This document shows positions 55,148-59,655 of a stretch of 64,000 bases of DNA, in pieces. The position numbers and the translations under genes are program-made. Each line of letters begins with the position of its first letter. Within the stretch, counting starts at the first letter, position 1. This DNA comes from Achromobacter aloeverae. Lineage in GTDB: Bacteria > Pseudomonadota > Gammaproteobacteria > Burkholderiales > Burkholderiaceae_B. Location: assembly GCF_004121055.1 (NCBI RefSeq), contig NZ_PYAL01000005.1, positions 186,001-250,000 of the forward strand, given 5' to 3'. The notes beneath the pieces are model-generated. The model saw only the letters and a program-made list of their open reading frames with translations, had not been told where the DNA came from and did not search any database.

Positions 55148-55930
55148 CTATTTAGCCCGTTCGCGCATTGCACGGGCGTAGAAATGGGGATTTTCGTAGC
55201 CGGCCTTGCCATAGCCCAGCGGCTGTTGGTCCAGGGTCAGGACCTCGCCGCCGGCGGCAAGCAGGACAGCATGGCCCGCAGCCGTGTCCCATTCCATCGT
55301 CCGGCCAAGGCGCGGATAAAGATCCGCACTGCCTTCCGCCACCAAGCAGAATTTCAGTGAGGAACCTGTCGATACGAATTGCTTGACGCAATAATCGACA
55401 AGAAAGCGCTTCATCGCCACTGCGTCGTTATGCGACCGGCTGCCCACCACGGTCAGACCATCGTGGGGGTGGACACGGCATTGCAGTGCCCGGTATTCGT
55501 TCGGACGACGGACAAACGCCCCGTGTCCGAGAGCGCCTGTATAGAGGGTTTTCAGGGCAGGGGCGTAAACGGCGCCCAGTATGGGCTGGCCTTTGTAGAT
55601 GAGTCCGGCGTTGACCGTGAACTGTCCGTTGCGGCTAATGAATTCCCGCGTTCCATCCAGGGGGTCGACCAGCCAAAACCAGTCCTGGACGGCGTTGGCG
55701 CCGGCCTCATAGGCCTCCTCCGCAATGATTGGGATATCGGGCGTCAGGCGTCCCAATCCCTCAATCAGTATTTTCTCGGCCCGGCGATCCGCGAGGGTCT
55801 GTGGGCTGCCGTCCACCTTGGTCACCGTTTCGCAGTCCGCGGACGCATATACATCGAGCACCTCGCGTCCTGCGGTCAGCATCAGTTCGGTGAGCGCATC
55901 TAGGAGCGACGGGGCGTTGTAATTGTTCAT
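55148..55930 (-). CDS. cysQ: 3'(2'),5'-bisphosphate nucleotidase
   Basis: 260 residues from ATG 55930; a TTG 19 codons upstream (55987) is possible but would overlap the promoter of cysD. Inositol-monophosphatase fold with the metal sites E71/E72 in IIAEEAYEAG, DPLDGTREF (89-97) and the C-terminal MEWDTAAGHAVLLAAGGEV near 212-228. CysQ hydrolyses PAP, the by-product of sulfotransferases and of PAPS reduction, to AMP. It is divergent from the cysD fusion gene and within the polysaccharide locus, which fits a role in recycling PAP from polysaccharide sulfation. Confidence 0.92.
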   Translation of the reverse strand: MNNYNAPSLLDALTELMLTAGREVLDVYASADCETVTKVDGSPQTLADRRAEKILIEGLGRLTPDIPIIAEEAYEAGANAVQDWFWLVDPLDGTREFISRNGQFTVNAGLIYKGQPILGAVYAPALKTLYTGALGHGAFVRRPNEYRALQCRVHPHDGLTVVGSRSHNDAVAMKRFLVDYCVKQFVSTGSSLKFCLVAEGSADLYPRLGRTMEWDTAAGHAVLLAAGGEVLTLDQQPLGYGKAGYENPHFYARAMRERAK

Positions 55931-55975
55931 GACTTTAAAAGTTTTAAGAAGAATCTCGTTTTTCCGGTCGGGAAT

Positions 55976-56004
55976 TTGACTGTGCAAGTCAGTTAATGTT
56001 TAAA
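55976..56004 (+). promoter_or_regulatory. Probable sigma-70 promoter of the cysD operon
   Basis: TTGACT (55976-55981) and TTTAAA (55999-56004) are 17 bp apart, 29 bp before ATG 56033. An inverted repeat TGACT-N5-AGTCA (55977-55991) overlaps the -35 element and could be an operator. The gap is shared with the divergent cysQ gene. Confidence 0.55.
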
Positions 56005-56032
56005 TCGTTCATGTCTCCAGGGAGCGCAGCCC

Positions 56033-57766
56033 ATGACCGGAAAACACCTAAACATGCAGGAACTCAATCAACGCCGCCGTGCGGCCGTACGGCTGCGCCT
56101 GCAAGGCCGCATGTTGCATGAGATTCGCGCCAGCACCGGGCTGTCCGCCCCTACTATTATCGCGGCTCACAAGGCTTATGAGCGCGGCGGTTGGGAAGGC
56201 GTGGACGTTTTGCGGCGAGGCAGGGCCGTGGGTGCCGGACGGGCGCTAACCGAGGAAGATGTGGATGACCTGCTGGCCGCCATGCTGCATTCTTCACCGG
56301 AGGAACATGGCCTGGCCGGCCAGGTATGGCAGACCGCCAGCTTGCACGGCCTGCTGGAACAGCGTCTCGATCGGACGCTGAGCGACCGCACGGTTGACCG
56401 TTATCTGGCCCGCTGGTCGTGGCCGGATCCCTTGGCGGCATTCAAGCAGGACGACGACGCCGCCATTCAACGCTGGTTGGCGACAGACTATGCGCGTCTT
56501 AATCAGCGCCGGCGTGCGGAGGGCGGCGACATCTACTGGTTGGCGCGGTGGAAGTCGGAGGCGGGTGTGTTGCTCATCGCGCGCAACCGGCGCGGCGCCC
56601 TGTATTGGGCGGGCGCTGCCGACGATGCCGAAGCCGGGGCTACGCAGGCGCAGGAGTGGGACGGCTTCGCACAGCGTTTGCAGCGCACCGTGGCTCACAA
56701 GACGTGGCTGATCCTCCCACAGGGAGCGCCCATCGAGGGCCTCTCGAACAGTCACCGTATCGAATGGGTCGCGCCGCGATTGGAGCCAGATGTTCCCGCG
56801 GGCAAAGATGAAGGCAAGGGCACCAGCATTATTTCGACCGAACGCATCCTGCGCCCCGGTATCGAAGGCGCGTTGACTCACCTGGATCGACTGGAAGCGG
56901 AGAGCATCCATATCATGCGGGAGGTGGTAGCCGAAGCCGAGAACCCGGTCATGCTGTATTCGATAGGAAAAGATTCGTCGGTGATGCTGCATCTGGCGCT
57001 GAAGGCCTTCTATCCCGCGCCGTTGCCGTTTCCATTGCTGCATGTCGACACGCGCTGGAAGTTCCGGGAGATGTACAAGTTTCGCGACCAACGGACGAAG
57101 GACATCGGTGCGAGGCTGATCACGCACATCAATCCGGAAGGAGTGGCCCAGGACGTAAATCCGTTCACGCACGGATCGGCTGTTCACACCGACATCATGA
57201 AAACTCAAGGCCTGAAGCAGGCTTTGGACAAGTACGGTTTCGACGCAGCTTTCGGTGGGGCGCGCCGCGACGAGGAAAAGGCGCGTGCGAAGGAACGGAT
57301 TTTTTCCTTCCGCTCCGCCGGCCACCGTTGGGATCCGAAGAACCAGCGTCCCGAACTCTGGCGCCTCTATAACGGACGCAAGCGCGCGGGCGAAACGCTG
57401 CGGGTCTTTCCTTTGTCTAACTGGACGGAGTTGGACATATGGCTCTACATCCATCGCGAAAACATTCCCATCGTGCCCCTGTATTTCGCCGCCCAGCGTC
57501 CGGTAGTCGAACGGGACGGCATGCTTTTCATGGTCGACGACGATCGCATGCCGCTGCGCGAAGGTGAGCGGCCCGAAATGCGCCAAGTGCGGTTTCGCAC
57601 CCTGGGCTGCTATCCGCTCACCGCGGCCGTAGAGTCCGACGCAACTACGTTGACCGACATCATCAAGGAAATGCTGGTCGCAACTACCTCCGAGCGGCAA
57701 GGGCGGGTCATTGACTTCGATGGCGCCGGCTCCATGGAGAAGAAAAAGCAGGAGGGATATTTCTGA
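56033..57766 (+). CDS. cysD: Sulfate adenylyltransferase subunit 2 (CysD) fused to an IS630-transposase-like N-terminal region
   Basis: 577 residues in one uninterrupted frame from ATG 56033 (AGGGAG nine bases upstream). Residues 281-577 are a complete CysD, close to the 302 of E. coli: [20 protein letters not shown]-loop SIGKDSS (310-316), [20 protein letters not shown], and the ending [14 protein letters not shown]. Residues ~9-120 look like the IS630-family helix-turn-helix and linker ([27 protein letters not shown], then [15 protein letters not shown]). Residues ~130-255 follow the DDE region but without its acidic residues (LARW at 170-173 where DE is usual; LILPQGAP at 226-233 where LILDN is usual). 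CysD and CysN make adenosine-5'-phosphosulfate. The extension may bind DNA or be inert. An internal TTG at 56873 could also start a plain CysD. Confidence 0.88.
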
Positions 57767-59655
57767 TGCGCTACGATCCTGGTTCCGACATCGCGCAGTA
57801 TCTGGAAGCGCACGCCCGCAAGACCTTGCTGCGGTTCATCACCTGTGGCAGCGTGGATGATGGCAAGAGCACGCTGATCGGGCGCCTGCTTTACGAAGCC
57901 AAGCAGCTATTCGACGATCAACTGACGGCATTAGCGAGTGAGTCGCGTAAATACGGCACGCAGAACGGGCAACTGGACTTCGCATTGCTGGTCGACGGCC
58001 TGGCCGCGGAGCGCGAACAAGGCATCACCATCGACGTGGCCTATCGGTTTTTTTCCACCGAGAAACGCGAGTTCATTGTCGCCGACACGCCCGGCCACGA
58101 GCAATACACCCGCAATATGGTGACGGGCGCGTCCACAGCGGACGTGGCAGTGATTCTCGTCGATGCGCGGGCGGGCCTGCTCACGCAAACCCGCCGGCAT
58201 AGTTTTCTCGTCTCGCTGTTGGGCATCCGCAATGTGGCGCTGGCGGTGAACAAGATGGACCTGGTCGATTATGACGAGGCGGTGTTCCGCAAGATAGAGG
58301 CCGAGTACAGGAGTTTCGCAAAGGAAGTGGGCCTGGAGTCCGTGACCGCGATCCCGGTATCCGCGCTGCGTGGTGACAACATCATGCAGGCGAGCGACGC
58401 GATGCCTTGGCACCAAGGCCCGACGCTCATCGATTATCTGGAGAATGTGCCCGTTCAGCAGCAAGCCGACGACGGCGCCTTCCGCTTGCCGGTGCAATGG
58501 GTCAACCGGCCCAATCAGGATTTCCGGGGCTATGCGGGCACTGTGGTGTCCGGTCGCATTGCCGTGGGAGATGCTGTGCGCGTGCTGCCGTCGGGGCGGG
58601 AAGCTGCCATTGCCCATATCGTGGGTTACGAATGTGATCTCGAACATGCGGTCGCCAACCAGGCTGTTACCCTGGTTCTGGACCGGGAGGTCGATGTGTC
58701 GCGCGGCGATGTACTCGTGAAAGCCGACGCGCCGGCAGAGGTCGCCGACCAGTTCGAAGCCCACATTGTCTGGATGGCAGATGCGCCCTTGTTGCGCGGT
58801 CGGCAGTACTTGATGAAGCTCGGCGCGCAGTCCGTAAACGCTAGTGTCACCGACATCAAGTACCAGGTAAACGTCAATTCGCTGGAACGCCTTGCGGCCA
58901 AAACCTTGCCCTTAAACGGCATCGGTATTTGCAATCTGCAGACGGACAGGCCCGTCGTGTTCGATCCCTACACCGTCAACCGGGATATGGGCGGGTTTAT
59001 CCTTATCGACCGGATAACTTATGCCACGGTAGCGGCCGGCATGCTGCACTTCGCGCTGCGGCGTTCCAGCAATATCCATGTCCAGCATATCGACATCGAC
59101 AAGCGAGAACGCGCCCGTATTAAAGGGCAGGCGCCGGGCGTGGTGTGGCTGACGGGCTTGTCCGGCTCGGGGAAATCAACGATTGCGAACCGCCTCGAGC
59201 AGCACTTGCACGCGCAGGGTTATCACACCTACATCCTTGATGGCGACAATGTGCGGCACGGCCTCAACAAGGACCTCGGTTTCACGGACGCTGATCGGGT
59301 CGAGAATATCCGACGAGTGGCGGAGGTCGCCAAACTCATGGTCGATGCTGGCCTGGTGGTGATCACCGCCTTCATATCTCCTTTCCGTGAAGAACGTCGT
59401 ATGGCACGCGACCTGTTCGCGGCGGGCGAATTCATGGAGGTCTACGTCGATACGCCTCTGGCAGTGGCGGAGCAGCGCGATCCCAAGGGCCTTTACAAGA
59501 AGGCGCGCGCCGGCCAGCTCAAGAATTTTACCGGCATCGATTCGCCGTACGAGGCTCCGGAGACGCCGACGCTGCGTCTGCGCGCAGCCGAACAACCGCT
59601 CGACGAGATGGTCGCCGAGATCGTGCGCCTGCTGGCGGCACGCCCGCTGGGATGA
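57766..59655 (+). CDS. cysNC: Bifunctional sulfate adenylyltransferase subunit 1 / APS kinase (CysNC, NodQ-like)
   Basis: 629 residues; ATG 57766 shares one base with the cysD stop (TGATG). The GTPase half has G1 GSVDDGKS (28-35), G3 DTPGH (107-111) and G4 NKMD (162-165), then the EF-Tu-like beta domains. The APS-kinase half begins near residue 450, with P-loop GLSGSGKS (464-471), [15 protein letters not shown] and [15 protein letters not shown]. Together with CysD it converts sulfate to APS and then PAPS. No cysH or cysI reductase genes follow, so PAPS here is likely for sulfotransfer rather than cysteine synthesis, as in the rhizobial nodPQ pair. Confidence 0.94.

Follow-up and report, generated by a model that had tools for sequence, protein, structure and literature searches.

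The window, i.e., the whole 64,000-nucleotide stretch of DNA analysed here, carries on its forward strand a gene of 577 codons (56033..57766) in which a degenerate IS630-type transposase is joined to CysD. The original prediction had described this gene as a single frame without frameshift, and the stretch from 56033 to 57766 is indeed open throughout. It had also placed a full-length CysD at residues 281-577 (56873..57763), and two independent matches bear this out. The TIGR02039 profile covers residues 284-577 with an E-value of 3.4e-154 and 512.7 bits, relative to a cut-off of 396.6, which places the protein in the CysD family; and the solved CysD structure 1zun_A is matched along its full length by residues 281-577 (E 2.1e-152). 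The cysNC gene (57766..59655, forward strand), recognized from its reading frame, follows directly, its ATG sharing one base with the stop codon of the fused CysD in the sequence TTCTGATGCG. Upstream and divergent, on the reverse strand, is a cysQ-like phosphatase gene (55148..55930; PF00459, Inositol_P, E 4.8e-53). Both the fusion and this divergent arrangement are shared with Achromobacter sp. HZ34. The ribosome-binding site proposed for the fused gene is found as GGGAG before the ATG, with GGAG at the same place in HZ34, and the proposed promoter is a sigma-70-like element (55976..56004, forward strand) with TTGACT at 55976-55981, a spacer of 17 bp and TTTAAA at 55999-56004, both hexamers being kept in HZ34.

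The fused gene is located in a polysaccharide cluster, among neighbours that we take, from their open reading frames, to be dTDP-rhamnose-type, glycosyltransferase-like and ABC-export genes. Another contig of the same genome carries a second cysD, 49% identical to the first, with the match restricted to the CysD part. In the neighbourhood lists made for other loci, some open-reading-frame calls in GC-rich DNA are unreliable, and the surroundings of the second cysD (L149) are left out of the interpretation for this reason.

The first 280 residues had been predicted to resemble an IS630-type transposase, and several lines of evidence agree with this. The IS630 profile NF033545 matches residues 14-160, with an E-value of 4.5e-16 for residues 1-280. 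Its score of 59.2 bits is under the curated cut-off of 100 bits, and thus the extension is a derivative rather than a working member of the IS630 family. As in that family (NF033545; IS630-Tc1-mariner group), two helix-turn-helix (HTH) domains are followed by an RNase H-like region. The first HTH (residues 14-64; 56072..56224, forward strand), where the NF033545 and HTH_29 matches begin, is the best-conserved part of the extension, as judged from its invariant columns. The second is a winged HTH (residues 96-150; 56318..56482, forward strand), for which the Pfam profile HTH_33 (PF13592) scores above its cut-off, 27.5 vs 25 bits; that is, a DNA-binding domain is present inside the enzyme chain. 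A remnant of the DDE (RNase H-like) domain, defined by alignment with IS630 transposases, extends over residues 161-250 (56513..56782, forward strand). Of the Pfam profiles named in the original prediction, HTH_29 and HTH_32 match the window protein under their cut-offs and DDE_3 gives no match to it at E 1; DDE_3 matches two of five long-form extensions, i.e., those built like that of the window.

One IS630 transposase (L188) aligns with window residues 6-259 at 28% identity (E 9e-25), and a profile-profile alignment of ten long-form extensions with six IS630 transposases spans 258 columns, with an E-value of 7.4e-39 and a probability of 99.96. The transposase in L188 (3607-4671) is the nearest one found; its first two catalytic acids are present, and its C-terminal end is disrupted in this copy. 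The homology stops near residue 250, before the third catalytic acid, so the predicted transposase-like stretch holds for most of its length, and residues from about 250 to 280 form a variable linker instead. The predicted absence of the acidic catalytic residues is also seen: where the transposase has IHWGDE the window protein has IYWLAR, with Ala171 (56543-56545, forward strand) in place of the first acid, and where the transposase has LILD it has LILP, with Pro229 (56717-56719, forward strand) in place of the second. Because the homology is nearly full-length and the first two acids are replaced, we conclude that the extension derives from a near-whole transposase, truncated where CysD starts. 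Compared with IS630 transposases, it thus differs in the first two acids, in the absence of the region of the third, and in having CysD as its C-terminus; judged from these residues, it cannot be active by the usual chemistry. Compared with CysD proteins (TIGR02039; 1zun), the fused protein shares the whole domain, with cysNC directly downstream, and differs in its approximately 280 extra N-terminal residues.

Structure predictions from the window and HZ34 proteins alone had mean pLDDT values of 33.7 and 47.1 and were unusable; the strand-helix order of the second resembles RNase H and was given no weight. At E 0.01 the extension profile had no match among PDB sequences, and a search of viral contigs returned no relatives.

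The extension also occurs in other forms. In other Burkholderiales, a short form of the fused cysD has a shorter, diverged extension without the first HTH. This short extension has no meaningful match in PHROGs or Pfam and only a weak direct match to IS630 (E 5.7e-4, probability 29). It does align with the long extension (hhalign, E 2.2e-11, probability 97), and an IS630 origin of the short form is supported because of this link to the long form. In genome G909 (L072), the fusion is HTH-only, just the DNA-binding part being retained. Lastly, extension and cysD are two adjacent genes in three genomes of one family (G1015, G1088 and G1558), the former lying 26-73 bp upstream of the latter; these unfused genes may represent an earlier state or a later split. 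On one contig of the short-form genome G241 (C27, L017), two fused short-form cysD genes are separated by about 6.7 kb, and upstream of each there is an inverted pair of elements of the kind described below.

The distribution of these forms was followed outward from the genus. The extension is found in 2 of 6 genomes of the genus, including HZ34, in which the neighbours are the same as in the window. In the family (268 genomes), 6 have the long form and 12 the short form. A sample of 399 genomes of the order contained 85 with a CysD of the window kind at E 1e-100, most without an extension; 14 long-frame matches in this sample were taken as short forms, seven after reading the locus and seven by frame length, in some cases together with the motif. 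Sampling the class (369 genomes) yielded 21 matches, and the loci read comprise three CysD fusions (L063, L069, L073), the HTH-only fusion (L072), one unfused gene (L065) and otherwise transposases. In the order of L063, another gammaproteobacterial order, 42 of 48 genomes carry the extension, and all 30 loci read there are in-frame CysD fusions. Matches are sparser in the orders of L069 (4 of 27 genomes) and L065 (4 of 145, of which two are unfused and adjacent to cysD). In the phylum sample 12 of 398 genomes match, the third unfused case, G1558, among them. Four of these matches come from other classes; their frames, of 303-355, are of transposase size, by which they were judged, and all fusions seen in this sample are thus gammaproteobacterial. 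The search for the same fusion elsewhere, suggested with the original prediction, therefore located it in HZ34, in six of the 268 family genomes and throughout much of another order.

A tree of 94 CysD parts groups the short forms in one clade (SH-aLRT 99) and the 30 rows of the other order in another (SH-aLRT 98), with the placement of the window and HZ34 not settled. A topology in which all 60 extension-bearing rows are kept together cannot be rejected and is even better, by 18.66 log units (p-AU 0.81). A single capture followed by losses would fit this result, which falls short of proof. In the tree of the extensions themselves, only 7 of the 11 rows meant as IS630 count; L067, L068, L071 and L083 were taken in the wrong frame and sit on very long branches. 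The extension is ancient, and long, short, HTH-only and unfused forms of it occur.

That a transposase fragment was not merely captured but kept, as originally proposed, is in line with the spread of the fusion across many genera and with purifying selection between the window and HZ34. Of the 64 codons for residues 1-64, 33 differ synonymously and 6 nonsynonymously; for residues 1-250 the figures are 103 and 70 of 246, and for the CysD part 140 and 10 of 296. The corresponding ratios are only rough, because dS is saturated. In ten long or unfused extensions, 17 of 20 invariant columns fall within residues 12-64. By these sequence comparisons, the DNA-binding part is the region of the extension best kept by selection.

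We then turn to the DNA upstream of these genes. AT-rich elements were first noticed on reading 43 upstream regions of long forms, and the pattern TTWAA-N-TTTAA, with small variants, was built afterwards; the motifs are thus defined post hoc, and the related genomes in which they are counted are not independent. The pattern is present in 32 of the 43 long-form upstreams (shuffled sequences: mean 2.8, maximum 6), twice or more in 23 (shuffled: 0.6, maximum 3), and in 5 of 6 long forms from Burkholderiales. Short forms have it in 1 of 16 upstreams, with 1.1 expected, and extension-less cysD genes in 0 of 34 upstreams, including 0 of 21 in a close clade; this last zero is weak, because the control upstreams are richer in GC (0.53 vs 0.40) and only 1.3 matches were expected. 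Eleven of the 43 long-form upstreams lack the pattern, including those of L069, L073, L129 and L130, which are all four of one lineage, and that of the HTH-only L072.

The short forms have a different element, TTGTCGCAWTTTGCATTT, arranged as inverted pairs. An inverted TTGTCGCAWTTTGCAT pair, 85-89 bp from core to core, is found in 13 of 18 short-form loci; no such pair occurs anywhere in the loci of 41 long-form entries, among which HZ34 appears twice, or in those of the 34 controls. The two sites flank the promoter region, the second lying at or just past the start codon. When 26 whole short-form genomes were scanned, the pair pattern matched in 15; by coordinates, 14 of these have it upstream of the fused cysD, at 15 places in all and with a span of 93-97 where 87-109 was allowed. 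Two places are away from a fused cysD (G596, G458), and a reversed control gave one match. Likewise, among 11 genomes of the other order, the AT-rich long-form pair occurs in five, exclusively at the fused-cysD promoter and in all five with a span of 75 bp (58-88 allowed); the control gave none.

In the window, two candidate operators can be recognized. Site A, TCATGACTTTAAAAGTTTTAAGAA (55927..55950), abuts the start of cysQ, and its 24 bp are identical in HZ34. Site B, GTTAATGTTTAAAT (55992..56005), overlaps the -10 box of the fused gene, fits the long-form motif and has 13 of its 14 bases in common with HZ34. The 18-bp core of site A (55932-55949) occurs once each in the genomes of the window and of HZ34 (G000 and G004) with up to 3 mismatches, and its reversed control at 3 mismatches also gives one match per genome. 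Sites A and B are only loosely alike in the inverted sense, and in a general scan for inverted repeats the window, like many other loci, did no better than shuffled sequence (29 of 30 shuffles were as good). Thus, given this failed blind scan and the missing sites in one lineage, the two-site reading is weaker for the window itself; its best support comes from the short forms and from some members of the other order. The idea that the candidate operators are fossil transposon ends was also considered and is unsupported: the terminal repeats of two IS630 elements, with ACCTATTGATCCGGCA-type ends in L188 and one TATTGATCCGGC-type end in L064, are unlike them.

Taken together, these data lead us to propose that a domesticated IS630 transposase, with its HTH kept, makes CysD self-regulating through paired operators, most likely as an autorepressor. 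We put the probability of this reading at roughly 0.7; self-regulation at the divergent promoter, raised as a possibility in the original prediction, gains support because motifs specific to the extension type sit upstream of cysD. Motif binding by the protein, its repressive effect and the nature of the signal are elements that we infer. The N-terminal part would be an IS630 transposase past cutting DNA, whose helix-turn-helix could still bind it. Fused CysD would bind paired operator sites around its own promoter, as the ancestral transposase bound DNA, and binding would most likely repress cysD-cysNC and, in the window, perhaps the divergent cysQ too; there, occupancy of site B would block the promoter, and protein on site A would sit at the cysQ start. 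The signal could plausibly lie in the state of CysD, which may be free or occupied with CysN(C) and its substrates. In this manner, a surplus ATP sulfurylase subunit would turn off its own synthesis. It is also conceivable, although we are doubtful, that subunits on two inverted sites pair and loop the promoter, and that CysN or the substrates of sulfate activation open the loop. If so, a fossil transposition complex would act as a sulfur-flux switch within an enzyme.

The upstream motifs might instead be owned by another regulator, e.g., a CysB-type sulfur regulator, and the extension have no regulatory role. AT-rich sites near -10 boxes are common, operator binding by the fused protein is only predicted, and the 11 long-form loci without the motif would be accounted for. 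We nevertheless regard this explanation as unlikely. Which motif is present depends on the type of extension, and neither was seen upstream of extension-less cysD genes; in addition, site A and the paired motifs are essentially confined to the fused-cysD promoter in the scanned genomes, whereas many genomic sites would be expected of a general sulfur regulator.

It is quite improbable, in our view, that the extension is a module for protein interaction or oligomerization, e.g., in a complex with CysNC or for glycan sulfation, and that DNA binding has been lost. This would explain why the DDE part is retained in most forms despite the lost acids, and why the short form can do without the first HTH; the position of the window gene in a polysaccharide cluster, and the sulfotransferase matches of 3 of the 7 candidate neighbour genes tested at other loci, also fit. 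It does not account for the HTH being the best-conserved part of the long forms, for the existence of the HTH-only form, or for upstream motifs that are specific to the extension type.

Last, we consider it very improbable that the fusion reflects a random insertion that happened to stay in frame, a passenger in the course of decay, or a mistake of assembly or annotation, with TTG 56873 as the true start: GAAGG does precede this TTG, and an ATG lies near the old CysD start in 17 of 37 long forms, yet the whole frame, the start region and the amino acids are conserved across genera, HZ34 has CTC at the codon in question, and an assembly error is ruled out because the fusion recurs in many genomes. 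Exclusive translation from TTG 56873, or confinement of the fusion to one assembly, had been named as outcomes that would overturn the original prediction, as had a failure of residues 1-280 to match any transposase profile; all three are contradicted by the data. In HZ34, the sole in-frame start codon found nearby is a GTG without a Shine-Dalgarno-like match, and HZ34 probably makes no free CysD from the fused gene. For the internal ATG of the 17 long forms (among L007-L010 and L113-L130), a loose Shine-Dalgarno-like match is present in 15, which makes an additional short product possible in some lineages; i.e., free CysD may also be made there.

Enzymes that double as regulators, known as trigger enzymes, include PutA, BirA and NadR. 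Fused CysD resembles them as a metabolic enzyme joined to a DNA-binding domain through which it probably regulates the gene encoding it; what sets it apart is the source of that domain, a DDE transposase, and the nature of the enzyme, an ATP sulfurylase. Transposon-derived regulators are likewise known. TldR is derived from TnpB (PMC13418256), eukaryotic transposase-derived factors have been described (PMC10027918), and recruitment in prokaryotes is documented for Xre-type proteins and antitoxins (PMC8987985), as far as the accessible parts of these sources go. Common to such cases and to fused CysD would be the reuse of a catalytically inactive transposon enzyme for gene control; the difference here is that a bacterial DDE transposase is fused to a metabolic enzyme, of which the accessible part of PMC8987985 gives no case. 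Nor was a CysD-transposase fusion found among the titles and abstract openings of the literature, in a coverage that is poor for subscription journals. Thus, enzymes with a DNA-binding domain of their own and regulators derived from transposons are already known; upstream motifs specific to the extension type are new here.

If the proposed autoregulation is correct, a central metabolic enzyme acquired a DNA-cutting transposase, disarmed it and made it the switch of its own gene. It would provide a clear example of how a DDE transposase became a regulator in bacteria; its long, short, HTH-only and separate-gene forms occur across Gammaproteobacteria, and the unfused genomes would be close to the starting state. 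To our knowledge, the control of PAPS supply in polysaccharide clusters is poorly understood; the motifs make a candidate operator for sulfate activation testable, including the copy in the polysaccharide cluster of the window.

Three further observations concern the neighbourhoods of extension-type cysD genes. Of seven candidate genes tested with Pfam near such cysD genes, three match sulfotransferase families (L153, L158, L163), which suggests a supply of PAPS for sulfated glycans at these loci. A divergent transporter gene lies upstream of the unfused extension gene in L157 and L186; the one in L157 matches CitMHS and Na_sulph_symp, and sulfate uptake is perhaps its role. In all three regions fetched from the other order (L154, L155, L167), one and the same gene, presumably MiaB-like, is found next to the fused cysD.
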